Notes under the pieces: generated by a model
The model's input: only the letters and a program-made list of their open reading frames with translations
The model's database searches: none
Told to the model about the DNA's origin: nothing
Program-made: the position numbers and the translations under genes
Assembly: GCA_020446815.1 (NCBI GenBank)
Contig: JAGRDY010000008.1
Coordinates: forward strand, 216,768-280,767
Reading direction: 5' to 3'
DNA from: Paracoccaceae bacterium
GTDB lineage: Bacteria; Pseudomonadota; Alphaproteobacteria; Rhodobacterales; Rhodobacteraceae
Length of the DNA stretch: 64,000 nt
Part shown: positions 41,585 to 53,987 of the stretch, in pieces
Position numbering within the stretch: position 1 is the first letter of the stretch
How the letters are laid out: every line of letters starts with the position of its first letter

Positions 41585-44032
41585 TCAGGCCCGGATACGG
41601 GCGTTTTCCGCATCCCACAGCGGTTGGTCGGCCTGGATGACGGCGCGGCAGCGGGCACCATAAATCTCGACCTCGATCTCGGTTCCCGGTACCGCCAGAT
41701 CGGCGCGGATCATGCCCAAGGCGATCGACGCATTGACCCGGTACCCCCAGGCCCCCGATGTGGTCTCGCCGACAACCTCGCCGCCATGCCAGAGCGTCGA
41801 CATGTAGGGCGCGTCACAGTCCTTGGCGTCGACGATCAGCGTGACGAAGCGCTTTTTCGCGCCGCGCTGCTTTTCTGCCAGAAGTGCCGCCTTTCCGGTA
41901 AAGTCCTGCGGTTTGTCGAATTTCACGAACCTGTCCAGCCCGCCTTCCAGAAGCGAGTAGTCGGTTGAAAGATCACCTTTCCACGCCCGGTAACCCTTCT
42001 CGATGCGGAGCGAGTTCAAGGCCCACATGCCGAAAGGCGTCGCCCCCGCCGCAGTGACCGCATCCCAGATCGCCGCGGCATCGGCCATTGCGCAGTGAAT
42101 TTCCCAGCCCAGCTCGCCGGCGAAAGACACCCGGACCAGCGCGCAATCGCGGCCCGCCACCTTGCCCTTGATGCTGACGCTCAGCCACGGCGCGTCAAGG
42201 TCGTGATCGCTCAGCGGCGCGAGAATCTCGCGCGCCCTGGGGCCGGTGACCAGCAGGCATTCAACTTCGTCGGAATGGTCGCTTACCGTGATCCCCTCGG
42301 GCGCCTGCCGTGACAGCAGCTCTCCGTCGTGCCACTGCGCCACGCCGGCGGTGATCAGCCCGACCTCGTCCGGCCCGTGCACCATCACCGACATCTCGGT
42401 CAGGATGCGCCCCCGGTCGTCGGGGAAATAGGCCAGCCCGATCCGGCCCGGTTTCGGCAGGCGTGTCGCGGTCAGCCCATCGACGTAATCCCGCGCGCCC
42501 GGACCTGCGACCTTCAGCCGGGTAAACCCGGTGATGGCGAGGATACCGCAGTTGTCACGAACCGCCTCGCATTCCTCGCGGATGCGCGCCTCCCACGGGC
42601 CGGCGCGGTTCCAGGTCTGGGTCGATTCCTCGGAGGTATCGTCGCCGGGCCTGGCGAACCAGTTGGCACGCTCCCAACCGTTATAGGCGCCAAAGACCGC
42701 CCCCGCGGCCCTGAGCCTTTCGTGCAGGCTGGAATGCCTCTTGTCGCCCCCGGCCGGCCAACGGTGCCAGGGGAAGTGCATCGCATATTCGTGACCGTAG
42801 GTCTCCATCCCCTTGGCGATGCAGTAGTCGCGATCGGCATAGGCAGTGTAGCGCCGCGGATCGCACGACCACATGTCCCATTCGGTCGCGCCCTCGGTGA
42901 CCCATTCGGCCAGTACCTTGCCCGCTCCGCCCGCCTGGGCGATGCCGAAGGTAAAGACGCAGGCCTCGAATGCGTTGGGCACCCCCGGCATCGGCCCGAT
43001 AAGCGGCAGCCCGTCGGGTGCATAGGGGATGGGGCCATTGATGACGCGGCTGATCCCGGCGGTGCCCAGAAGCGGCACACGGGCCATCGCGTCCTCGATA
43101 TACCATTCCAGCCTGTCGAGATCGTCGGGATAGAGCTGGAAGCTGAAATCCTCGGGCATCGGGTCGTCGGGTGTCACCCAATGCGCCTTGCAGCCCCGCT
43201 CATACGGGCCGAGGTTGAGGCCGGTCTTTTCCTGGCGCAGATAGTAGGAACTGTCGACGTCGCGCAGAAGCGGCAGCTTGCGGCCATGTTCCTTCGACCA
43301 GGCTTCCAGCTCGGCGATCGGCTCGGACAGCATGTACTGGTGGCTCATCACCATCATCGGCACGGTGCGCCCGCCAAAGGGCTTGAACCATTCACCGACC
43401 TTCTGTGCGTAATAGCCGGCGGCATTGACGACGTATTCGCAGCGGATATCACCCTTGCCGGTATGCACGATCCATTCGCCGTTCTCGCGGCTCACCCCGA
43501 TCGCGGGGGTGAAGCGCAGAATCGTCGCGCCCATGTCGCGGGCACCCTTGGCCAGCGCCTGCGTCAGTTGCGCCGGGTCGATGTCGCCATCCGCCGGGTC
43601 GTAGAGCGCGCCTTTCAGATCGTGGGTCTCGAGGAACGGATATTTGCCCTTGATCTCGCCCGTGCCGAGAATCTCGATCTCCATGCCTTGATAGCGGCCC
43701 ATGCCTCGGGCGCGTTCGAATTCCTGCATCCGCTCCTTGGAATGCGCGAGCCGGATCGAGCCCGTTACATGGTAGTTCATCGGGTAGTCGACCGCCTGCC
43801 CGAGGCCACGGTAAAGCTCGGTCGAATAGCGCTGCAGGTTCATGATCGACCATGATGTGGAAAAAGTTGGCACATTGCCCGCAGCGTGCCAGGTAGACCC
43901 GGCAGTCAGTTCGTTCTTTTCCAGAAGAACACAATCGGTCCAGCCGGCCCTGGCCAGATGATAGAGCGACGATGCGCCCACCGCACCCCCGCCAATGATA
44001 ACCACCCGTGCCGTTGTCGGTATTGTACTCAT
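41585..44032 (-). CDS. Dimethylglycine/sarcosine dehydrogenase-like flavoprotein with GcvT domain (copy 2)
   Basis: This 815-residue paralogue of the preceding gene has VVIIGGGAVGASSLYHLARA, GSTWHAAG with the flavin-linking His, and a GcvT region with NCGILAITGFTRLKVAGPGA and GELGWEIHCAMADAAAIWDA. The two proteins share architecture but differ clearly in sequence, which argues for different substrates and an old duplication. It is the first gene of the leftward operon that ends with HyuA, and it is divergent from a LysR regulator gene. The ATG at 44032 has GAGGACGGGGAC before it. Products would be formaldehyde equivalents on folate and less methylated glycine. Confidence 0.92.
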   Translation of the reverse strand: MSTIPTTARVVIIGGGAVGASSLYHLARAGWTDCVLLEKNELTAGSTWHAAGNVPTFSTSWSIMNLQRYSTELYRGLGQAVDYPMNYHVTGSIRLAHSKERMQEFERARGMGRYQGMEIEILGTGEIKGKYPFLETHDLKGALYDPADGDIDPAQLTQALAKGARDMGATILRFTPAIGVSRENGEWIVHTGKGDIRCEYVVNAAGYYAQKVGEWFKPFGGRTVPMMVMSHQYMLSEPIAELEAWSKEHGRKLPLLRDVDSSYYLRQEKTGLNLGPYERGCKAHWVTPDDPMPEDFSFQLYPDDLDRLEWYIEDAMARVPLLGTAGISRVINGPIPYAPDGLPLIGPMPGVPNAFEACVFTFGIAQAGGAGKVLAEWVTEGATEWDMWSCDPRRYTAYADRDYCIAKGMETYGHEYAMHFPWHRWPAGGDKRHSSLHERLRAAGAVFGAYNGWERANWFARPGDDTSEESTQTWNRAGPWEARIREECEAVRDNCGILAITGFTRLKVAGPGARDYVDGLTATRLPKPGRIGLAYFPDDRGRILTEMSVMVHGPDEVGLITAGVAQWHDGELLSRQAPEGITVSDHSDEVECLLVTGPRAREILAPLSDHDLDAPWLSVSIKGKVAGRDCALVRVSFAGELGWEIHCAMADAAAIWDAVTAAGATPFGMWALNSLRIEKGYRAWKGDLSTDYSLLEGGLDRFVKFDKPQDFTGKAALLAEKQRGAKKRFVTLIVDAKDCDAPYMSTLWHGGEVVGETTSGAWGYRVNASIALGMIRADLAVPGTEIEVEIYGARCRAVIQADQPLWDAENARIRA

Positions 44033-44108
44033 GTCCCCGTCCTCTGATTTGCCGCCGGAATTATTGTGGGAAAAACACCGGCTTTCAATTCGATCACTGC
44101 ATGTTTAT

Positions 44109-44127
44109 TAATCGGAGATCCCGATTA
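44109..44127. promoter_or_regulatory. Perfect LysR-type palindrome in the divergent promoter gap
   Basis: TAATCGG-AGATC-CCGATTA has perfect 7-base arms and fits the T-N11-A rule for LysR sites. It lies 9 bases before the LysR ATG, in an AT-rich gap of 104 bases shared with the flavoprotein operon. It is a strong candidate for autoregulation and for control of the divergent operon. Confidence 0.7.
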
Positions 44128-44136
44128 GGAATAGCC

Positions 44137-45018
44137 ATGCAAATTGACCTGATCAAAACCTTTCTGGATCTGTGCGAAACCCGAAGTTTCAACCAGACGG
44201 CCGATCGGCTGGGGGTGACGCAATCAACCGTTTCCGGGCGCCTGAAAACGCTCGAATCTGTGTTGGAACGACGGCTATTCACCCGTTCGCGGGCTGGCAC
44301 GCAGCTTACCACCGATGGTTTGCGCTTTGCGCCCCATGCCCGGTCGCTGCTGCATGACTGGACCGAGGCACTTCATGCCCTGGGCGATGCCACCGCCGGG
44401 GCCGTCACAATGCGCATCGGCATTCAGCATGATCTGGTCGGCGTTCATTTCAGCGACCTGATCCTTGGTTTTCGCAGCGCCTTGCCCGACACGTCGTTTT
44501 TCTTCGAGGCCGATTACTCGGCTCAGATGAGTTCGGATCTGATTACCGGAATCGAGGATTTCGCGATTCTCTTTTCACCGCGTTTTCATCCCGATCTCTA
44601 TTTCGAGACCCTGGGCGAGATTACCTACCTGATGGTCTCGACCGAGACGGACCGGCTGTCGGAGGTGCGGCCCGACACATATATCCTGCCGCATTTTTCC
44701 GACGCAATCCCGCATATCCATTCCGGATTGCATCCGAAACTGTCGACCGCGACCCTGTCGATCGGCCAGAACGCCGCGATGGTGGCGCTGATCGGGTCGC
44801 TGGGCGGGGCGGCCTATGTCCTGCGTCAATCGGCGCAGGAGATGGTTCAGGCGGGAATCTGCAAGCTGGTGTCCGATGCGCCACCAATTCCGCAACCGGT
44901 TTTCGCCGGGCTCCATATTCGGAACCGGCACCGGGCAATGCACAGGCGAATCCTGCAAATCCTGCGAACACGGTTCGGGCCGGACCGCATGACGGACGCA
45001 CGGCGCCGGGTCGGTTAG
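44137..45018 (+). CDS. LysR-type regulator of the methylated-amine operon
   Basis: This 293-residue protein has a LysR helix-turn-helix at the N terminus (FLDLCETRSFNQTADRLGVT, QSTVSGRLKTLESVLERRLF) and a divergent effector domain. Its head-to-head position with the flavoprotein operon and the palindrome just before its start suggest it regulates that operon and itself. The inducer is probably a betaine, dimethylglycine or a related amine, but this is inference. The ATG at 44137 has AGGA seven bases upstream; frames reading further upstream are not supported. Confidence 0.88.
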   Translation: MQIDLIKTFLDLCETRSFNQTADRLGVTQSTVSGRLKTLESVLERRLFTRSRAGTQLTTDGLRFAPHARSLLHDWTEALHALGDATAGAVTMRIGIQHDLVGVHFSDLILGFRSALPDTSFFFEADYSAQMSSDLITGIEDFAILFSPRFHPDLYFETLGEITYLMVSTETDRLSEVRPDTYILPHFSDAIPHIHSGLHPKLSTATLSIGQNAAMVALIGSLGGAAYVLRQSAQEMVQAGICKLVSDAPPIPQPVFAGLHIRNRHRAMHRRILQILRTRFGPDRMTDARRRVG

Positions 45019-45238: not shown

Positions 45239-47389
45239 ATGAAAAAGCCGATCCTGTTCGCGCTGGTTGCCGCGGTCATCGTCGTTACCCTCTACTTGCT
45301 CGCCAGGAATCCCGTCGATCTCGAGATGCTGCGCGCGGAACTCGACGGGCTCGATCGTTTGCGGGCGGCGCGGCCGCTTCTTGTCGTTGCGGTTTTCTTT
45401 GCCGTTTATGTCGCCGTTGCTGCCCTTTCGTTGCCACTGGCCCTCTGGATGACGCTGGCCGCGGGTGCGCTGTTCGGCTTTGGCTGGGGGTTGGTGCTGG
45501 TTTCCTTTGCCTCTTCGATCGGGGCGACTCTTGCCTTTCTTGCCGCCCGCTACTTCCTGCGCGATTGGGTTCAGGACAGGCTGGGCGATCGGATCGGCAC
45601 CATCAACGACGGAATCGCCCGTGATGGCGGGTTCTATCTGTTCACGCTCCGGCTCATTCCTGCGGTGCCTTTCTTTGTCGTCAATCTGCTGATGGGGCTG
45701 ACACCGATCAAGGCCTGGGTTTTTTATGGCGTGAGCCAGCTTGGGATGCTTGCCGGCACCGCCGTTTATGTGAATGCCGGTACTCAGCTGGCGCAGCTTG
45801 AGGGGGTTTCCGGCATTCTGTCGCTACCGCTTGTCGTTTCATTCGTTTTGCTGGGTATCTTCCCATGGATCGCAAAGCTGGCCATCGGCGCCATCAAGCG
45901 CCGCCGAGCCTATGCGGGCTGGAACAGGCCCGCCAGATATGACCGCAATCTGATTGTCATCGGCGCCGGCGCCGCGGGCCTGGTCTCGGCCTATGTTGGC
46001 GCGACGGTCAAGGCCAAGGTCACGCTGATCGAAAGCCATAAAATGGGTGGAGACTGCCTGAACTTCGGTTGTGTGCCGTCAAAGGCCTTGATCGCCAGCG
46101 CCAAACTGGCACAGAAAATGCGCCATGCCGACCGCTATGGCCTTTCTGCCGTCTCACCCGTGTTTTCATTCAGAAAAATATTTGAACGGATCCACGCCAT
46201 CATCGCCAGGATAGAGCCGCATGACAGTGCCGAGCGATATAAAGGCATGGGCGTCGAAGTTCTGCAAGGGCACGCCCGGCTGATTGACCCCTGGACCGTT
46301 GAAATCACCGGAGCCGACGGCGAAGTCAGCCGGCTGACCGCACGCGCGCTTGTCATTGCCACAGGCGCGGCGCCTTTTGTACCACCGTTGCCGGGCATCG
46401 AAGACAGCGGCTATGTCACTTCGGATACTTTGTGGGAGAGGTTCGTGACGCTGGACGAGCCTCCGGAACGCATGGTGGTGTTGGGCGGCGGCCCGATCGG
46501 GTGTGAACTGGCGCAGAGCTTCGCGCGCCTGGGATCGCAGGTCACACAGGTGGAAATGGTATCGCGCATTCTGATTCGGGAGGATGAAGAAGTCTCTGAC
46601 CTGGCCAAAATGGCCCTGGAATCCGATGGCGTCAGAGTTTTGACCGGGCACAAGGCTCTGTCATGCGGCATCGACAACGGCGAAAGATACATCGAAGTCG
46701 AGGCCAATGGCGAAACCTCGCGCCTGCCGTTCGATGCGTTGTTGGTGGCCGTTGGCCGCGCGGCCCGGCTGACCGGTTTCGGGTTGGAGGATCTGGGGAT
46801 TCCGGCCGATCGTGTGGTCGAAACAAATGACTATCTCGAAACGCTCTACCCCAATATCTATGCCGCGGGTGATGTGGCCGGGCCGTATCAGTTCACCCAT
46901 ACGGCAGCACATCAGGCCTGGTTCGCGTCAGTCAACGCGCTTTTCGGGATGTTCAAACGTTTCAAGGCCGATTACCGGGTCATCCCCCGGGTCACGTTCA
47001 CCGACCCCGAAGTGGCGCATGTGGGCCTGAATGAACAAGAGGCCCGTGAAAAGGGCGTATCATTCGAAGTGACCCGATATGGCATCGATGATCTTGACCG
47101 CGCGATCACCGATGGCACGGATCACGGGTTCATCAAGGTGCTGACATCGCCAGGCAAGGATAGAATTCTTGGTGTCACCATCGTCGGCGAACATGCCGGC
47201 GATCTTTTGGCCGAATTTGGGCTGGCGATGAAACATGGGCTGGGCCTGAACAAGATACTTGGCACGATTCATGCCTATCCGACACTGGCCGAAGCCAACA
47301 AGTTCGCCGCCGGCGAATGGCGTCGCGCCCATGTGAACCCGCGTATTCTGGACCTGGCGGAGCGGTTCCATACATGGCGGAGAGGATAA
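45239..47389 (+). CDS. Fusion of a TVP38/TMEM64 (DedA-like) membrane protein and a pyridine-nucleotide disulfide oxidoreductase
   Basis: This 716-residue protein has about five membrane helices in residues 1-220 with TVP38/TMEM64 features (AGALFGFGWGLVLVSFASSI, LRLIPAVPFFVVNLLMGLTP). It then has a complete disulfide-reductase flavoprotein: FAD motif VIGAGAAGLVSAYVG (240-254), redox pair C273/C278 in GGDCLNFGCVPSKAL, NAD motif VVLGGGPIGCELAQSFARLG, and the dimer-interface HAYPTLAEANKF. It resembles mercuric reductase but has no HMA domain or C-terminal cysteine pair, so mercury reduction is not supported. It heads a plus-strand operon with a CDP-alcohol phosphatidyltransferase and a YnjBCD-type transporter, suggesting redox work on a membrane-linked substrate. 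GGGAA lies seven bases before the ATG. Confidence 0.9.
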   Translation: MKKPILFALVAAVIVVTLYLLARNPVDLEMLRAELDGLDRLRAARPLLVVAVFFAVYVAVAALSLPLALWMTLAAGALFGFGWGLVLVSFASSIGATLAFLAARYFLRDWVQDRLGDRIGTINDGIARDGGFYLFTLRLIPAVPFFVVNLLMGLTPIKAWVFYGVSQLGMLAGTAVYVNAGTQLAQLEGVSGILSLPLVVSFVLLGIFPWIAKLAIGAIKRRRAYAGWNRPARYDRNLIVIGAGAAGLVSAYVGATVKAKVTLIESHKMGGDCLNFGCVPSKALIASAKLAQKMRHADRYGLSAVSPVFSFRKIFERIHAIIARIEPHDSAERYKGMGVEVLQGHARLIDPWTVEITGADGEVSRLTARALVIATGAAPFVPPLPGIEDSGYVTSDTLWERFVTLDEPPERMVVLGGGPIGCELAQSFARLGSQVTQVEMVSRILIREDEEVSDLAKMALESDGVRVLTGHKALSCGIDNGERYIEVEANGETSRLPFDALLVAVGRAARLTGFGLEDLGIPADRVVETNDYLETLYPNIYAAGDVAGPYQFTHTAAHQAWFASVNALFGMFKRFKADYRVIPRVTFTDPEVAHVGLNEQEAREKGVSFEVTRYGIDDLDRAITDGTDHGFIKVLTSPGKDRILGVTIVGEHAGDLLAEFGLAMKHGLGLNKILGTIHAYPTLAEANKFAAGEWRRAHVNPRILDLAERFHTWRRG

Positions 47390-47392
47390 GCC

Positions 47393-48019
47393 ATGATTGA
47401 TCGCCTCTTGCTTCCGTTCCAGAAGCGATTGCTGCAATGGCCCGCACGGGCGCTGGCCGGGGCAGGTATTTCGGCGGATTCCTTGACGCTTGCGGGGTTT
47501 GTGCTGGGTCTGGCGGCGGTTCCCTGTCTGGCGGCGGGGGCATATGCGCCTGCACTTGGCTTGATCCTTTTGAACAGGGTCGCTGATGGGCTGGACGGTG
47601 CGGTGGCGCGCCTGACAGCACCGACCGATCGGGGGGCATTTCTGGACATCGCATTCGACTTTTTCTTTTATTCCGCCATCCCGCTTGGGTTCGCGCTGGC
47701 CGATCCGGCGGCGAACGCGCTTGCGGCGGCGATTCTCATCACCGCCTTTGTCGGCACGGGATCAAGCTTTCTGGCCTTTGCAGCCATCGCCGCCAAGCGC
47801 AGGCAACTGCCCGAAGGCTATACCGCGAAAGGCATCTACTATCTTGGTGGGCTGACCGAAGGGGCCGAAACCATCGCGGTTTTCGCCCTAATGTGCCTGT
47901 TCCCCGCCATCTTCCCGGTTTTGGCACTGATTTTTGCCGCCGCCTGCATGCTGACAACCGTGATCCGTTGGCACCAGGGCTGGACAACGTTTTTCAACAC
48001 CGACGCAATAAAAAACTGA
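47393..48019 (+). CDS. CDP-alcohol phosphatidyltransferase (YnjF-like)
   Basis: This 208-residue integral membrane protein has the full CDP-alcohol phosphotransferase motif D65xxD68G69xxA72R73...G81xxxD85xxxD89 and about five further hydrophobic helices. Such enzymes move a phospho-alcohol or phosphatidyl group from a CDP carrier to an alcohol. It begins three bases after the fusion protein's stop, with AGAGG upstream, and precedes a YnjBCD-type transporter. In E. coli the homologous ynjF also belongs to a ynj gene set, so the association is old. The acceptor alcohol is unknown. Confidence 0.9.
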   Translation: MIDRLLLPFQKRLLQWPARALAGAGISADSLTLAGFVLGLAAVPCLAAGAYAPALGLILLNRVADGLDGAVARLTAPTDRGAFLDIAFDFFFYSAIPLGFALADPAANALAAAILITAFVGTGSSFLAFAAIAAKRRQLPEGYTAKGIYYLGGLTEGAETIAVFALMCLFPAIFPVLALIFAAACMLTTVIRWHQGWTTFFNTDAIKN

Positions 48020-48030
48020 ATGGAGAGACC

Positions 48031-49218
48031 ATGCGCTTAGCTGTTCTTGCCGCAGCGATCCTGGCGGCCGCATCACCGGTCATGGCCACGAATTGGAACG
48101 ATACACTGGCCGCCGCAAAGGGCCAGACAGTCTACTGGAACGCGTGGGGCGGCGATGAGCGAACCAACAGTTTCATTGCCTGGGCCAGTGATGCATTGTC
48201 GGCCCGATACGGCGTGACGATCCAGCAGGTCAAATTGACCGATACAGCCGAAGCAGTCACCCGCGTCATCGCCGAAAAGGCCGCAGGGGTCACCGAGAAC
48301 GGGTCCGTCGACATGATATGGATCAATGGCGCGAATTTTCTGTCGATGAAGCAACAGGGGTTGCTCTTTGGTCCGTTTGTCGCCGATCTTCCCAATGCAA
48401 GATATCTGGATCTGGCGTCCGGCTCCGCCGCAACAGTTGATTTCACCGTCCCCGTGGAGGGCTACGAATCGCCCTGGAGGCTGGCGAAATTCGTCATGAC
48501 CTATGACAGCGCGCGGGTATCCGAACCGCCCCGTTCTATGAGGGCGCTTTTGAAATGGGCCCAGCAACATCCGGGCCGGTTCACCCACCCGGCCGTATCC
48601 AACTTCATGGGGGCGACATTTCTCAAACAGGCGCTGATCGAACTGGCACCCGACGCATCGGTCCTTCAGTCGCCTGTCACGGATGAAGCCTTCGCTGCCG
48701 CCACCGGCCCGCTTTGGCAATGGTACGATGCCTTGCGGCCCAATCTGTGGCATTCGGGAGAAACCTTTCCCGAAAACGCCTCGATTCAAGAACAGATGCT
48801 GAATGATGGCGAAATCGACATTGCCATGTCTTTCGACCCGGCCTCGACCGCCGCTGCCATCGAAAAAGGGCTGCTGCCCGGCACAGCACGCGCCTACGGG
48901 CTTGAAGGCGGCACGATCGGCAATATCAGTTTTGTCGCCATTCCCTTCAATGCCGCCCACAAGGAAGGCGCGATGGTGGTGGCCAATTTCCTGCTTGACC
49001 CCGCCACCCAGGCGCGGGCGCAGGACATCACCGTTCTGGGCAGCTATTCGGTTCTTGACCAGGACAAGTTGGGCCCACAGGAACGGGCGGAATTCGCCGC
49101 CCTGCCGACCTCACCCGCGCTGCCCACCAATGAGGAGCTTGGCGTGACACTGGTGGAACCACACCCCAGCTGGATGACCCGGCTGACCGACGTTTGGGCA
49201 CAGCGATACACGAAATGA
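48031..49218 (+). CDS. YnjB-like ABC transporter substrate-binding protein
   Basis: This 395-residue protein has a signal peptide (LAVLAAAILAAASPVMAT) and a bilobed binding-protein fold (QTVYWNAWGGDERTNSFIAW, GSVDMIWINGANFLSMKQQG, VPVEGYESPWRLAKFVMTYD). It resembles E. coli YnjB and more distantly thiamine or spermidine binding proteins. It would capture a small solute in the periplasm for the permease and ATPase genes that follow. GGAGAG precedes the ATG at 48031, and its stop overlaps the permease start (ATGA). The ligand is not known for this family. Confidence 0.88.
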   Translation: MRLAVLAAAILAAASPVMATNWNDTLAAAKGQTVYWNAWGGDERTNSFIAWASDALSARYGVTIQQVKLTDTAEAVTRVIAEKAAGVTENGSVDMIWINGANFLSMKQQGLLFGPFVADLPNARYLDLASGSAATVDFTVPVEGYESPWRLAKFVMTYDSARVSEPPRSMRALLKWAQQHPGRFTHPAVSNFMGATFLKQALIELAPDASVLQSPVTDEAFAAATGPLWQWYDALRPNLWHSGETFPENASIQEQMLNDGEIDIAMSFDPASTAAAIEKGLLPGTARAYGLEGGTIGNISFVAIPFNAAHKEGAMVVANFLLDPATQARAQDITVLGSYSVLDQDKLGPQERAEFAALPTSPALPTNEELGVTLVEPHPSWMTRLTDVWAQRYTK

Positions 49219-50924
49219 CCGGTGCAGAGGGCCGCTGGCTTCGGTTTTTTGTGTTGCTGCTGGTCACCGGTGGATTGGTCCTGCCAATCCTGACCGGTCT
49301 TTGGGAAACCGGCCGCGCGGCTTTTGGCATTTTGCCCGCGATCGGTGCGGAAACCTGGTCACTGGCACCTTGGCAGCGGCTCTTTACCCTTCCGGGAATT
49401 GGCTCCAGCCTGAAGCTCAGCCTTTGGACCGGCCTTGCATCCACCTTGCTGGCGCTGCTTCTGGCGACCGGGTTCTGCGCCGCAATTCACGGCTGGTCAG
49501 GGCAACGGCATGTCAGCCGCATCCTTGGTCCGCTGCTGGCGGCCCCTCACGCCGCGCTTGCCATCGGGATTGCCTTTTTGATCGCTCCGTCCGGCTGGAT
49601 CGCGCGCATGATCAGCCCATGGGCCACCGGCTGGAACCTGCCGCCGAACATCGCGACAGTGAATGATCAGATGGGGCTGGCTCTTGTTCTCGGGCTCTTG
49701 GTCAAGGAAGTTCCCTTTTTGCTGTTGGTGATGCTTGGAGCACTTGGACAAATACCGGTGAACGCGCAATTGGCGGCGGGCCGCGCCTTGGGCTATGGCC
49801 GTGGTGTCGTGTGGATCAAGGTGATCTTGCCGCAGGTCTACCCGCTGATCCGTCTACCGGTTTTCGTTGTCTTGTCCTTTGCCTTGTCGGTAGTCGATAT
49901 GGCGATCATCCTTGGGCCTTCCAACCCGCCGGTTCTGTCGGTTGCAGTGACCCGTTGGTATTTCGCCGCCGATACATCGCTGATCCTGCCCGCATCTGCG
50001 GCGGCGCTGGCACAGGCCTTTGTGGTCGCGTTCGGCATCTTGCTGTGGATATGTGCCGAACAGGTGGCGGCGCGGGCCGGGCGGTGGTGGATACGCCGTG
50101 GCGGGCGCGGCTATTCGGCGGGGCCGGGGCTGATCCTGGCCAGTGGCGCGACGCTAATCTTGATGGGCCTTGGGGCGTCAGCTCTGATTGATCTGGCGAT
50201 CTGGTCGGTGACCTGGCGCTGGTCCTTTCCATCTGCCCTGCCGGAAGGCTGGTCATCGGGCATCTGGGCGCGGCCCGGCTCTGGCTGGGGCAGCGCATTC
50301 ATTCAGACGACGGTCATCGGCCTGACAACGACGGCGATCGCGGTTCTGCTGGCGATTGCCTGGCTCGAAGGGGAGGATCGTGCCGGGATGCAGCGCGCCC
50401 GCTGGGCCGAGGTATTGATCTATCTGCCCTTGCTGGTGCCGCAAATTGCCTTCCTTTATGGGCTGAACGTGGTCTTTCTGCGCGCCGGGCTGACGGGCGG
50501 ACTCGGCGCAGTCATCTGGGCGCAGGCGTTGTTCGTGTTTCCCTATGTGATGATTGCACTTTCCGATCCGTGGCGGGCGCTTGACCGGCGTCTGGTGTGC
50601 GCGTCGGCGGCACTGGGAGCCGGGCCGATGCGACGGTTGGTCGCGGTAAAGCTGCCGATCTTGCTGCGCCCGCTTTTGACTGCGGCGGCAATCGGATTCG
50701 CGGTATCGGTCGCCCAGTACCTGCCGACGCTTTTCATGGGGGCGGGCCGGGTCGCCACACTCACCACCGAGGCGGTAACGCTTTCGTCCGGCTCCGACCG
50801 CCGCGTGACGGGTGTTTACGCGGTGTTGCAGGCGGTATTGCCGCTGGGCACTTATGTGGCGGCGCTGTTTCTGCCTGCCTTCGTGCATCGGAACCGTCGC
50901 GGGCTTTCCGGGGGCGCGGCATGA
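49215..50924 (+). CDS. YnjC-like ABC transporter permease (duplicated)
   Basis: This 569-residue inner-membrane protein has about twelve helices in two similar halves, each with a permease coupling loop (ALGYGRGVVWIKVILPQVYP and ALGAGPMRRLVAVKLPILLR). It therefore forms the whole membrane channel alone, as in YnjC and ThiP. Both junctions overlap by four bases (ATGA with the binding-protein gene before and the ATPase gene after), indicating tight coupling. Confidence 0.9.
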   Translation: MTGAEGRWLRFFVLLLVTGGLVLPILTGLWETGRAAFGILPAIGAETWSLAPWQRLFTLPGIGSSLKLSLWTGLASTLLALLLATGFCAAIHGWSGQRHVSRILGPLLAAPHAALAIGIAFLIAPSGWIARMISPWATGWNLPPNIATVNDQMGLALVLGLLVKEVPFLLLVMLGALGQIPVNAQLAAGRALGYGRGVVWIKVILPQVYPLIRLPVFVVLSFALSVVDMAIILGPSNPPVLSVAVTRWYFAADTSLILPASAAALAQAFVVAFGILLWICAEQVAARAGRWWIRRGGRGYSAGPGLILASGATLILMGLGASALIDLAIWSVTWRWSFPSALPEGWSSGIWARPGSGWGSAFIQTTVIGLTTTAIAVLLAIAWLEGEDRAGMQRARWAEVLIYLPLLVPQIAFLYGLNVVFLRAGLTGGLGAVIWAQALFVFPYVMIALSDPWRALDRRLVCASAALGAGPMRRLVAVKLPILLRPLLTAAAIGFAVSVAQYLPTLFMGAGRVATLTTEAVTLSSGSDRRVTGVYAVLQAVLPLGTYVAALFLPAFVHRNRRGLSGGAA

Positions 50925-51559
50925 ATACGCTGGCGCTGAGCGATGTGGAAATCCGGCGACACGGGGCAAGCGGGCCACTTTTCGCACCGCTGTCGCTGAT
51001 CGTTCCGGCCGGAACGATCACAACCGTCATGGGCCCTTCGGGCATCGGAAAATCGACTCTGATAGATTTCATCGGCGGGCATCTTGGCTCGGGGTTCGTC
51101 GCCACGGGCAAGATCATGCTGAACGGCCTGGACGTGACACATGTTCGTGCCGAAAATCGACGTATCGGCATACTGTTTCAAGATGAGCTTTTGTTTCCGC
51201 ATCTTTCGGTGGGTGACAATCTGGCCTTCGGGTTGGCTGCACGGCATCACGGTCGCGCAGCGCGGCGAAGGGCTGTTGACGCCGCCCTGGAACAGGCTGG
51301 CCTGGCGGGATTTCACGATCGCGATCCGGCCACGCTATCGGGTGGCCAGAGGGCACGGGTGGCACTGATGCGGGCCTTGCTGGCGGAACCTCGGGCATTG
51401 CTTCTGGATGAGCCGTTTGCCAAGCTCGACGCGGAGTTGCGGACCGAGATACGGAGTTTCGTTTTCTCTCATATCCGTGCGCGGGGGGTGCCGGTACTGT
51501 TGGTCAGCCACGATGCGTCCGATGCCGACGCGGCGGCCGGGCCGGTAGTGGCGATGTGA
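50921..51559 (+). CDS. YnjD-like ABC transporter ATP-binding protein
   Basis: This 212-residue short ATPase has Walker A GPSGIGKST (38-46), signature LSGGQRARVAL, Walker B ALLLDEPFAKLD and switch His in LVSHDASDADA. The short length is normal for YnjD/ThiQ-type ATPases. It starts within the last codons of the permease gene. A 28-base perfect palindrome lies just after its stop, before the convergent phosphatase gene. It powers the importer together with the fused permease. Confidence 0.92.
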   Translation: MNTLALSDVEIRRHGASGPLFAPLSLIVPAGTITTVMGPSGIGKSTLIDFIGGHLGSGFVATGKIMLNGLDVTHVRAENRRIGILFQDELLFPHLSVGDNLAFGLAARHHGRAARRRAVDAALEQAGLAGFHDRDPATLSGGQRARVALMRALLAEPRALLLDEPFAKLDAELRTEIRSFVFSHIRARGVPVLLVSHDASDADAAAGPVVAM

Positions 51560-51584
51560 CAGGGCAGCAGCGCTTCAAGGATCA

Positions 51585-51612
51585 GTTCAATCAGACCGCG
51601 GTCTGATTGAAC
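51585..51612. terminator. Perfect 28-base palindrome between convergent genes
   Basis: GTTCAATCAGACCG is followed directly by its exact complement CGGTCTGATTGAAC, with centre CCGCGG and no loop. It lies between the ATPase stop (51559) and the phosphatase stop (51616), so as RNA it would form a stem at the 3' end of both genes. It lacks a T-run; it may stabilise or terminate both messages, or be a protein-binding site. Confidence 0.7.
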
Positions 51613-51615
51613 CTG

Positions 51616-52455
51616 TCAGCGCTGCAAGAACACGGCACCTTGCATGGACTGTGGAACACCGGCGCCTAAAAGGGTCAGGATGGTTGGGGCAAGCTGGAGC
51701 TGGTCGAGGACGGTATCCGGCGCCGGCCCCGTCGCCGCGCCGAAATAGTAAAGTGCGAAATCCTGTTGCAGGTCACTGCGCCCGCCGTGGTGGCCGCGTT
51801 CGTCCTGGCCATGATCAGCGGTGACGATGACCTCGTATCCCATCGACCGCCATCGCGCGACATAAGGCGCGAGCATTTCATCGAGCTTGAAACAGGCGTC
51901 ATCCATTTCGCGGCAATCGTGGTAGAAACGGTGCCCCATACTGTCGAGCGTGCAGCTGTGCAGGATGCCGTAGTCGAGACCGTGGCGCTGGCAGAGCATC
52001 GTCAGGGTGGCGAACAGATCGGCATCGCAGGGGGTTGTCTGGTTAATCAGCCCATACCCGGTCATTGTATGGAACCGTCCGTGATTGATCGTCGCGCTGT
52101 CTGGCTCGTCATATTCGATGTCGCGGACAGGATCGAAGGGCGAACGGTTGAAGAATTCAGACCAGAAGGAATGGGTAACCGCCCCGGTGATGCCGCCTGC
52201 CTCGCGTGTTTGAGAAAAGATGTCGGGGAGTTTCAGCCGGAACACATTGGCATTGCCGGTGCAGCCATGTACCGCCGGTGTCACGCCCGTATGAATCGAG
52301 GCATAACAGGAGGCCGAGGTGGAAGGCAGAACCGAGCGCATTTTCCACACCCGTGCCGCGCCGTTATCCACCCAGCCTTCCAGATTGCCGAATAGCCTGC
52401 GCCAGTTGCGCCATGGAACGCCGTCGATAACGATCAGCAGGAGCTTGTTTTGCAC
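51616..52455 (-). CDS. Alkaline-phosphatase-superfamily phosphodiesterase/nucleotide pyrophosphatase-like protein
   Basis: This 279-residue protein starts with LLLIVIDGVPWRNWRR (metal Asp11), has a nucleophile region SVLPSTSASCYASIHTG near Thr46, and later DSMGHRFYHDC and VIVTADHGQDERGHHGGRSD. These are the zinc ligands of the nucleotide pyrophosphatase/phosphodiesterase group. There is no signal peptide, so it is cytoplasmic. It converges on the ynj-like transporter operon, separated only by a 28-base palindrome, which suggests it may process the imported solute, perhaps a phosphodiester. A mono-esterase activity cannot be excluded. Confidence 0.82.
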   Translation of the reverse strand: MQNKLLLIVIDGVPWRNWRRLFGNLEGWVDNGAARVWKMRSVLPSTSASCYASIHTGVTPAVHGCTGNANVFRLKLPDIFSQTREAGGITGAVTHSFWSEFFNRSPFDPVRDIEYDEPDSATINHGRFHTMTGYGLINQTTPCDADLFATLTMLCQRHGLDYGILHSCTLDSMGHRFYHDCREMDDACFKLDEMLAPYVARWRSMGYEVIVTADHGQDERGHHGGRSDLQQDFALYYFGAATGPAPDTVLDQLQLAPTILTLLGAGVPQSMQGAVFLQR

Positions 52456-52476: not shown

Positions 52477-52504
52477 CTGTTGGATTCAGGCTGTTGGATT
52501 CAGG
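52477..52504. repeat. Tandem 14-base duplication covering the hemY-like stop codon
   Basis: CTGTTGGATTCAGG occurs twice in direct tandem (52477-52490 and 52491-52504). On the minus strand the first copy contains the TGA of the hemY-like gene. It looks like a recent duplication that did not alter the protein. Confidence 0.8.
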
Positions 52505-53987
52505 GCCGGCCGGCTCCATCTTCGTCGATGATCATGGTTTCGTCATGCCCATTGGCGTCGCTATCGCCGGATCGGTCGAGCCGGTCTTCGCCGGCAGCAT
52601 CCGCCGAGGCAAGATGGCCTACGATCAGCGGCAGCATGTCGGATCCGTGGGCCATGGGGCTTTCGCTTTGCGGCGGTTCGCGCCAAGACAAGGTATCGAG
52701 ACCCCCGCAGCCTTCACAGGTGGGCGCCCATTCGGAATAGACGTTGTGGCATTTGTCACAGACCCATTTCGGGCCACGGCTCGCCGTCAGGGCGCGTGTC
52801 AGCCATCCGCGCACCAGAACGTCATCGGCACCTTCGCCGCGGGTGATCGCCGCCATGATCGTCAGGCTGCGGGCTGTCGGGTGGCTTTCGGGCAGATTGC
52901 CCAGCGCCCGGCGTGCTGCGGGGAAATCTTCGGCGGCGATATTGAGTTCGGCACGCAACATGCGGGTTTCTTCGTCCTGGGGATTTATCGCCATCAGCGG
53001 CTCGAATCGCCTGAGCCGCGCAGCGGCGGTTTCGTCGGGCACAATGGCCGCGAAGGCGGTTGCCAGATCCGGATGGGGCTGCGCCTCCCATGCCTTTTTC
53101 AGAATTCTCGTGGCCAGTTTTGGCTTGCCATTCATGATATAGCTTTGCGCGGCAAGAACGGCCGCCGGAATCAGATCGGGTGACAGGCGATTAGCGGCGA
53201 TCGCGGCCTCGCGCGCCTCGATCGAAGCGTTTTCGTCAAACACCTGCCTGGCTTCTTGCAAGGCGAGCACCGCATCGCGGCGCTGGTGCACGTCGCGCGG
53301 CAAGAGCCCCTGTTTTCGCTTGGCCCCAAGAACATCACGGGCGCCTTTCCAATCGCCTTTCGATGTCTGGAGTTTCAGCAAGGCGTTCTGCAACTCTTCG
53401 TGGCGCGGCTTCAACGCATAGGCGGTTTCGGCCAGTTTCAGTGCAACGTCGGTGTCGCCTTCGGCCAGTTTCTGTTTCATCAGCCCACGGATGCCGACAA
53501 AGCGGGTCCGATCGTCACCCAAAAGGCGTTTGTAAACCTCGGTCGCGCGTCGCGTGTCGCCGGAAAGTTCGGCAGCCTGGGCGGTCAGGAGATTGGTCAG
53601 TTCGGGGCGGTTAAGGTATTTTTCGGCCTTGGACGCCTGAGACATTGCCACGCGCGCCTCGCCGGAGGCGAGCGCCATCACAGCGTCGGACAACGCCTGA
53701 TACCCCTTGCGTTCACGATTGCGGTCAAAGTACCGGCTCAACGCAGTTTCATCCCCGTTGAGAAATTTCACCAGCGCCACGATCAGACCGAGAAGCTTTA
53801 GCGCGATCCAGAAAAGCAGCAAGGCCACCAGCGCGAGGATGATGGCCTGCACCGGGCCGAGGTTGAACTCCATGTTGGCGACAGTGATGCGTACACCGTC
53901 GCCGTTTTCCGAAAGATACCCGGCCAAAAGGGTCAGGCCCGCGACGGCAGCGACGAAAAGAACGATTTTGACAAATGACCAGATCAT
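52500..53987 (-). CDS. hemY: HemY-like membrane TPR protein with C-terminal zinc knuckle
   Basis: This 495-residue protein has two N-terminal membrane helices (FVKIVLFVAAVAGLTLLAG and AIILALVALLLFWIALKLLG) and the HemY_N domain, followed by TPR-like helical repeats (about 90-400). It ends in a rubredoxin-like knuckle with C410, C413, C424 and C427 (VCDKCHNVYSEWAPTCEGCG). The name HemY in proteobacteria is historical; it is not protoporphyrinogen oxidase, and its exact role near heme synthesis is unproven. The knuckle resembles that of LapB/YciM. The ATG has GAGG at five bases. It follows the mitofilin-like gene by eight bases and lies in the same operon as hemD. Confidence 0.88.
   Translation of the reverse strand: MIWSFVKIVLFVAAVAGLTLLAGYLSENGDGVRITVANMEFNLGPVQAIILALVALLLFWIALKLLGLIVALVKFLNGDETALSRYFDRNRERKGYQALSDAVMALASGEARVAMSQASKAEKYLNRPELTNLLTAQAAELSGDTRRATEVYKRLLGDDRTRFVGIRGLMKQKLAEGDTDVALKLAETAYALKPRHEELQNALLKLQTSKGDWKGARDVLGAKRKQGLLPRDVHQRRDAVLALQEARQVFDENASIEAREAAIAANRLSPDLIPAAVLAAQSYIMNGKPKLATRILKKAWEAQPHPDLATAFAAIVPDETAAARLRRFEPLMAINPQDEETRMLRAELNIAAEDFPAARRALGNLPESHPTARSLTIMAAITRGEGADDVLVRGWLTRALTASRGPKWVCDKCHNVYSEWAPTCEGCGGLDTLSWREPPQSESPMAHGSDMLPLIVGHLASADAAGEDRLDRSGDSDANGHDETMIIDEDGAGRP

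Follow-up and report, generated by a model that had tools for sequence, protein, structure and literature searches.

A recurrent gene unit of a VTT-redox fusion protein, a YnjF-like CDP-alcohol enzyme and a YnjBCD importer in Pseudomonadota, with a possible role in head-group uptake

A 64,000-nucleotide stretch of contig JAGRDY010000008.1 from a Paracoccaceae bacterium of the family Rhodobacteraceae (the window) carries five consecutive plus-strand genes, which encode a fusion of a VTT domain to a pyridine-nucleotide-disulfide oxidoreductase, a YnjF-like CDP-alcohol phosphatidyltransferase, and the binding protein, permease and ATP-binding subunit of a YnjBCD-type importer (Table 1). These genes form a recurrent unit rather than a chance assembly, and their linkage spans several alpha- and gammaproteobacterial families plus Escherichia coli. 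We read them as the “take” form of a pathway in which a small alcohol, most likely containing ribose, would be imported and then joined to a phosphatidyl group, and put the probability of this reading at about 0.4.

The five genes are tightly packed and a sixth converges on them, as an initial annotation of this DNA had claimed and a direct reading of genes and gaps bears out. The fusion and CDP-alcohol genes are separated by 3 bases and the latter and ynjB by 11; ynjB overlaps ynjC by 4 bases from the ATG at 49215 (25 bases from the alternative TTG), and ynjC overlaps ynjD by 4. Searches with the YnjB model NF008633 gave matches in 76 of 198 genomes from the window's family and, across Pseudomonadota, in 51 of 398. 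We read 192 YnjB loci: 71 from the window's own family (of 78 match rows, with 7 contig-end fragments left out), 40 from the 398-genome survey, where neighbourhoods were taken only from YnjB genomes outside that family, 80 from named genomes and one from E. coli K-12. Removal of five with identical sequence ends left 187 distinct loci. Genes were typed by profiles for which window and E. coli sequences served as seeds, and counted as adjacent within 1.5 kb (CDP-alcohol enzyme) or 3.5 kb (VTT protein) of the YnjBCD block.

By these rules, the CDP-alcohol enzyme lies beside YnjBCD at 127 of the 187 loci, a VTT protein at 56, and both at 49. The initial annotation would have been refuted by families not linked outside the genus; the linkage does extend beyond it for every part except the converging phosphodiesterase. 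The respective counts are 46 and 4 of 71 in the own family, 25 and 19 of 40 in other Pseudomonadota, and 55 and 32 of 75 in the named genomes, with both present in E. coli (1/1). The reductase part alone was read at three more own-family loci; loci with this part only (L085, L094 and L095, and at contig ends L150, L182 and L197) stand outside the VTT counts.

Gene order differs among lineages. The fusion, CDP-alcohol enzyme and YnjBCD follow one another in Rhodobacterales, Rhizobiales and Oceanospirillaceae; the order is fusion, a DUF547-type gene, YnjBCD and CDP-alcohol enzyme in two gammaproteobacterial families (f40 and f69), and YnjBCD, CDP-alcohol enzyme and fusion at locus L130; E. coli has a further arrangement. 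Because the orders differ, no single inherited block accounts for the linkage. This bears on the view that the genes share no pathway and are an often co-inherited neighbourhood, spread by transfer, whose members function separately. The fusion-protein tree does mix classes, and most Rhodobacteraceae loci hold YnjBCD, often with the CDP-alcohol enzyme, without the fusion; yet the same content recurs in different orders, the genes overlap or nearly touch, they are associated at genome level even when not adjacent, and in one lineage a nucleoside transporter homologue occupies the importer's position (below). We regard separate functions as highly unlikely.

The fusion and TIGR04283, which like TIGR04282 is a family of “arsenosugar biosynthesis glycosyltransferases”, were sought in the same 398 genomes as YnjB. 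At thresholds of at least 50% identity and at least 587 bits, the fusion was counted in 59 of 138 matched genomes; the other 79, whose matches were weaker, unfused or to the reductase only, were excluded, and one genome (G215) has a partial match. Among the 59, 21 hold YnjB, 35 hold TIGR04283 without YnjB, and three hold neither; in all three of these the CDP-alcohol gene lies within 2 kb of the fusion. The fusion is present in 21 of 51 genomes with YnjB vs 38 of 347 without it (Fisher 6e-7; the Fisher values on the 398 genomes are not corrected for kinship), and TIGR04283 in 40 of the 59 fusion genomes vs 113 of the 339 others (Fisher 1e-6). YnjB and TIGR04283 occur together in only 7 of the 398 (Fisher 5e-5).

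The arsenosugar enzyme ArsS, the YnjF-like enzyme and ArsM were sought in 80 chosen genomes, comprising 38 of the 51 with YnjB, 32 of the 38 YnjB-less fusion genomes, and 10 further genomes of one family (f6). ArsS was found in 23 of 28 YnjB-less fusion genomes (f6 and genome G209 apart), all 28 of which have TIGR04283, and in none of the other 52 (0/38 with YnjB, 0/13 f6 fusion genomes, 0/1 for G209). The YnjF-like enzyme was present in 48 of those 52 (36/38, 11/13 and 1/1) vs 1 of the 28 (G556), and ArsS and this enzyme coincide in one of 63 fusion genomes (Fisher 3e-9). ArsM (NF008823, E ≤ 1e-40) was found in 1/38, 4/13, 0/1 and 17/28 genomes of the same groups, with 6 of the 17 above the curated cut-off.

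Of the 23 genomes with ArsS, 10 have it no more than 5 kb from the fusion. Profile searches of 20 YnjB-less fusion stretches found DUF547-type genes in 7, TIGR04283-type in 6, TIGR04282-type in 4 and YnjF-type CDP-alcohol genes in 4; two of the stretches (L232 and L236) hold an ArsS above its cut-off, and two (L236 and L243) an ArsM-like protein below its own. The tie of the fusion to ArsS, TIGR04282 and TIGR04283 in other genomes is new over the initial annotation. The window's own genome has no match to ArsS (E ≤ 1e-60), ArsM (NF008823, E ≤ 1e-40) or TIGR04283 (E ≤ 1e-40). On the fusion tree, with types set by us from presence data, six changes between types are needed (four forced by starred branches), or five (three forced) in a version with 35 rows.

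In the alphaproteobacterial family f6, where YnjB was found in none of the 13 fusion genomes, a Na+/nucleoside-transporter (CNT) homologue stands between the fusion and the CDP-alcohol gene at L237 and L239 (PF07662 and PF01773 scored in L237). This CNT subfamily (at least 67% identity) is present in 10 of 89 f6 genomes, and all 10 carry the fusion, itself present in 12 of the 89 (Fisher 1e-11); with the 53% and 43% homologues of G607 and G637 included, both from genomes without the fusion, the figure is 10 of 12 (Fisher 8e-10). Nine of the 10 have the two genes within 4.3 kb, the CNT of G570 lying elsewhere, and in the same nine the CDP-alcohol gene starts 3–16 bases after the CNT gene. YnjB was likewise found in none of G607, G637 and G209.

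Aligned with solved nucleoside permeases, the motif GQTEAPL of those proteins reads GVVESPL in 9 of 11 CNT genomes and GLVESPM or GPVESPL in the other two, with the Glu of NE-VA and the Asn and Ser of AN-xS kept in all 11. According to the part of the vcCNT paper available, Gln154 is in direct contact with the base and Thr155 and Glu156 reach it via water; ribose is contacted by Glu332, Asn368 and Ser371, and both moieties by Phe366 (PMC4139061). On our own placement of these residue numbers, most of the 11 have Val at the Phe366 position and two have Phe. Ribose contacts that are kept beside base contacts that are changed point to a solute that carries ribose but no ordinary base. As a side observation, G209, which has no match to YnjB, TIGR04283 or ArsS, carries an 8-oxoguanine deaminase gene (L272, 5814–7175; 710.7 bits, cut-off 532) after the fusion and CDP-alcohol genes; it might hint at purine nucleosides and, as a single case, is not used as evidence.

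The patterns observed (gene content, recurrent linkage, co-occurrence and mutual exclusion in the sampled genomes, and the CNT at the importer's position) lead us to infer the following biochemical steps. YnjBCD would import a small polar alcohol, most likely one containing ribose, and the YnjF-like enzyme would join this alcohol, or its phosphate, to the phosphatidyl group of CDP-diacylglycerol, giving a lipid with an unusual head group. The VTT domain might scramble or flip that lipid, or present it to the redox domain, whose NAD(P)H-dependent disulfide-reductase activity would perform a reduction linked to that group. Where other bacteria carry the same fusion, it would work with a “make” pathway (ArsS, TIGR04282, TIGR04283 and often an ArsM-like methyltransferase) in place of the importer and the CDP-alcohol enzyme. 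Head-group import and use in membrane lipid, as originally suggested, is still the best simple reading, the CNT before the CDP-alcohol gene in a YnjB-less lineage speaking for it. The suggested removal from lipid lacks a basis: the converging alkaline-phosphatase-superfamily enzyme that had been counted as a module part is a PF01663 phosphodiesterase, a local neighbour found at 1 of 187 YnjB loci, namely the window's.

A narrower version arises because the fusion has ArsS and TIGR04283 as partners in other genomes. YnjBCD or the CNT would then import arsenosugars or a related riboside from algae and ArsS bacteria, the YnjF-like enzyme would produce a lipid of the arsenosugar-phospholipid type, and the fusion would move and redox-manage it. 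We consider this version unlikely; ribosides or other alcohols are likelier than arsenosugars alone, because E. coli has the same CDP-alcohol subfamily and YnjBCD. If it were true, genes for bacterial arsenosugar uptake and lipid attachment could be named, together with a bacterial salvage of arsenolipids or riboside lipids and a role for the E. coli ynj operon. In its available text, a 2025 review describes how cells take up small organoarsenicals as largely unknown, the passage being about absorption rather than bacteria (PMC12608789). For the broader take-form reading, the make-or-take pattern suggests ribosides, arsenosugars and polyol phosphates as candidate ligands and phosphatidyl-ribosides as candidate products.

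The CDP-alcohol enzyme itself bears on which alcohol is used. Its catalytic Asp signature, DGLDGAVAR(x7)GAFLDIAFD, and its PF01066 score place it in the superfamily. Of 127 module members, 118 have a linker of seven residues, as does E. coli YnjF; the linker has eight in the other nine members and in two paralogues with this pattern in the window's own genome. K146, E156, E159, T160 and R192 are among the residues invariant in 44 aligned members. By sequence and predicted fold, the nearest proteins are inositol-phosphate-type enzymes, namely phosphatidylinositol-phosphate synthases (PIPS), AF2299 and IPCT-DIPPS.

This likeness favours scavenging of an ordinary polyol or phospho-alcohol (an inositol phosphate or glycerophospho-compound) or of a cationic alcohol, without a ribose or arsenic link, in which case the VTT-redox protein would assist membrane redox reactions in general, ArsS pathways included. 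R192 pairs with R195 of MtPIPS in a local alignment that is very weak, at 3.1 bits, with the number counted from the printed alignment; the accessible part of the structural paper gives R195 as an inositol-phosphate-site residue (PMC4634129). Against this, the second PIPS phosphate arginine (R155) seems, from the IPCT-DIPPS alignment, to be replaced by the invariant E159-T160 stretch, and the window enzyme was rejected as a PIPS by model NF045883 (27.7 bits vs a cut-off of 170).

The importer offers further points for such a solute. Among the fold neighbours of YnjB, AfuA and the P5PA protein bind phospho-compounds, and at 4 of the 40 other-family loci, these being all four of family f51, the ynjB frame is preceded at a distance of 3–31 bases by the end of a gene for an APH-family kinase (scored as PF01636 in L117); together with the TIGR04283 and TIGR04282 genes there, this gene possibly marks an import–phosphorylate–activate route. 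In E. coli, deletion of ynjC reduced uptake of one of two cationic dyes, according to the portion available of a 2022 paper that also describes the YnjC substrate as never studied directly (PMC9184624). The same source reports a ynjC point mutation selected under colistin, its mechanism unknown; this is consistent with a role at the membrane but no proof of one. Among the literature matches listed, no title assigns ynjBCD or ynjF a function. Scavenging of a polyol or cationic alcohol accounts for neither the CNT swap nor the ArsS pattern, and we hold it to be somewhat unlikely.

The fusion protein, which has relatives at 51–68% identity in other Pseudomonadota, raises the question of a role in redox defence. 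Its reductase part carries the active-site GGDCLNFGCVPSK and falls in the PRK06370/lipoamide/MerA group, and the motif GGDCLNxGC(V/I)PSK is present in 69 of 69 aligned fusion proteins. A Tyr precedes the conserved C-terminal Pro in all 12 commonest variants (51 of the 69 proteins; HAYPTLAEA in the window), at what we take to be the position of the catalytic His of lipoamide and glutathione reductases. MerA requires a C-terminal Cys pair; the window protein ends in DLAERFHTWRRG, without Cys, and at 359.9 bits vs a cut-off of 454.45 (TIGR02053) was rejected as a mercuric reductase.

The fusion could nevertheless be a MerA-like enzyme that detoxifies metalloids or reactive sulfur or selenium at the membrane, with YnjBCD and the CDP-alcohol enzyme as indirect support. 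Besides the group membership of its reductase part, this would accommodate the genes for ArsS, ArsM-like proteins and TIGR03169 that neighbour it elsewhere, the presence of YnjE (a sulfurtransferase) and YnjA (AhpD-like) in the E. coli cluster, and the listing of ydjXYZ-ynjABCD as FNR-activated in the available text of PMC3688515. The MerA score and missing Cys pair speak against it, as does the CDP-alcohol enzyme, the most constant partner of YnjBCD, which it leaves unexplained; we judge such a defence role unlikely. A profile search found no homologues of YdjY, YnjA or YnjE at the window locus, and across the 192 loci they occur at 1, 7 and 8, respectively. Separately, a TIGR03169-like (“Nterm_to_SelD”) oxidoreductase recurs near the fusion at eight loci, with 330 bits in L149, 337 in L233 and 291 in L239 (below the cut-off of 310), the rest being assigned by sequence likeness only.

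Several observations weigh against the take-form reading. The partners are not obligate, the fusion being absent from 30 of 51 YnjB genomes and from 113 of 153 with TIGR04283; own-family loci mostly lack it, and 25 of the 71 have no adjacent CDP-alcohol gene, some of them at contig ends. In f51, YnjBCD is followed by TIGR04283 and TIGR04282 genes (one member of each scored, both above cut-off) and, in three of four loci, also by the fusion; both kinds of partner coexist there. Three of the 52 genomes set against the 28 (G595, G632 and G209) lack both YnjB and any known importer. The ArsS rates apply to the 80 chosen genomes in which it was sought; independent tree contrasts are few (starred branches: three for ArsS, two for the CDP-alcohol enzyme) and not significant, with none in the wrong direction.

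The substrate side meets objections of its own. The search for the CNT subfamily covered f6 only, and GVVESPL also occurs in the 53% CNT of G607, a genome without the fusion. In the available text of PMC4139061, vcCNT binds 5'-deoxyuridine very poorly, which argues against 5-deoxyribosides. The dye result in E. coli would fit a cationic solute. The AlphaFold model of YnjB (predicted local distance difference test score 92.6) has mixed PDB fold matches at about 15% identity, including STM0429 (a PhnS protein), ferric binders, AfuA, P5PA and polyamine binders; these give a fold class, not a ligand.

Two further gene types accompany the unit elsewhere. A DUF547-type gene commonly follows the fusion, at both make and take loci (15 in all); PF04784 was scored on the f62 homologue at L126, where a TonB-receptor-like gene separates it from ynjB, and the others were assigned by a profile from that cluster. 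Directly upstream of ynjB at seven loci, and upstream of ynjD-ynjB in Desulfobulbus (L198), stands a gene for a radical SAM/SPASM-type protein (PF04055 and PF13186 scored in L206; no NCBIfam model over its cut-off). No CDP-alcohol gene was found in these eight stretches. At one of them (L214) a TIGR04283/TIGR04282 pair precedes the radical SAM gene and ynjB; at another (L196) both genes are nearby and separate, with TIGR04283 on the opposite strand.

At the borders of the window's unit, the palindrome in the gap after ynjD may be a boundary or shared terminator stem; a terminator scan made no call there. At another locus (L060), hemY faces ynjD directly, without the PF01663 gene between them. 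Upstream, the LysR-type regulator could possibly control the module, and LysR genes lie within 3.5 kb at 14 of the 187 YnjB loci. It may instead serve the divergent dimethylglycine/sarcosine-dehydrogenase-like gene; the arrangement of these two (41585–45018) is identical in another Rhodobacteraceae genome (L165). The dehydrogenase was considered and dropped as a clue to a choline or betaine head group: DAO homologues occur at 15 of 192 loci, counted over the whole stretch read at each, at varying distance and strand, and it is kept as a neighbour.

Table 1. Features at and around the five-gene unit, in window positions (cut-offs in brackets).
Feature	Position	Strand	Details
LysR-type regulator	44137-45018	+	upstream; divergent from dehydrogenase-like gene
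VTT-redox fusion: VTT (TVP38/COG0398-type DedA) + pyridine-nucleotide-disulfide oxidoreductase	45239-47389	+	716 aa; PF09335 74.1 bits (33.9), PF07992 194, PF02852 104
CDP-alcohol phosphatidyltransferase, YnjF-like subfamily	47393-48019	+	208 aa; PF01066 31.8 bits (22)
YnjB-type periplasmic solute-binding protein	48031-49218	+	395 aa; NF008633 490.7 bits (203); N-terminus signal-peptide-like, judged by eye
YnjC-type fused permease	49215-50924	+	PF00528; alternative TTG start 49194 gives 576 aa
YnjD-type ATP-binding subunit	50921-51559	+	PF00005
Perfect 28-base palindrome	51585-51612	.	inside 56-base gap between YnjD and converging phosphodiesterase
Phosphodiesterase/nucleotide pyrophosphatase	51616-52455	-	PF01663 66 bits; local neighbour
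hemY (HemY-type gene)	52500-53987	-	44 bases from phosphodiesterase, same strand

Among the literature matches listed, no paper brings TVP38-reductase fusions together with CDP-alcohol enzymes and YnjBCD; nearest comes a study of DedA subfamilies, the available part of which suggests COG0398 proteins as phospholipid scramblases and has this fusion type as their commonest (PMC10127716). The closest known system is the E. coli ydjXYZ-ynjABCD/ynjE/ynjF cluster, which does bring together VTT proteins, YnjBCD and a YnjF-like enzyme with the seven-residue linker, in line with the similarity originally proposed; it differs in that its VTT proteins are not fused to a reductase and ynjF converges on the rest. 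With the arsenosugar neighbourhoods (ArsS TIGR04167, ArsM, TIGR04282 and TIGR04283), the unit shares the VTT-redox fusion, which adjoins them in other genomes, whereas at the window locus the importer and CDP-alcohol enzyme stand in their place.

At the level of single proteins, the CDP-alcohol enzyme has the fold and the DxxDGxxAR...GxxxDxxxD signature of PIPS and AF2299, but a linker of seven residues instead of eight and an acceptor site only partly alike. The f6 homologue of the CNT proteins (NupC/vcCNT) occupies the importer's place before the CDP-alcohol gene, but the L237 member reaches only 272 bits against the TIGR00804 cut-off of 442, its base-contact residues differ, and the window has no such gene. 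As a pathway, the unit resembles the head-group scavenging from host metabolites for phosphatidylcholine described, in the text available, for mitis streptococci (PMC6805115), where a scavenged head group likewise enters lipid synthesis; the head group is a different one, and the likeness is at pathway level.

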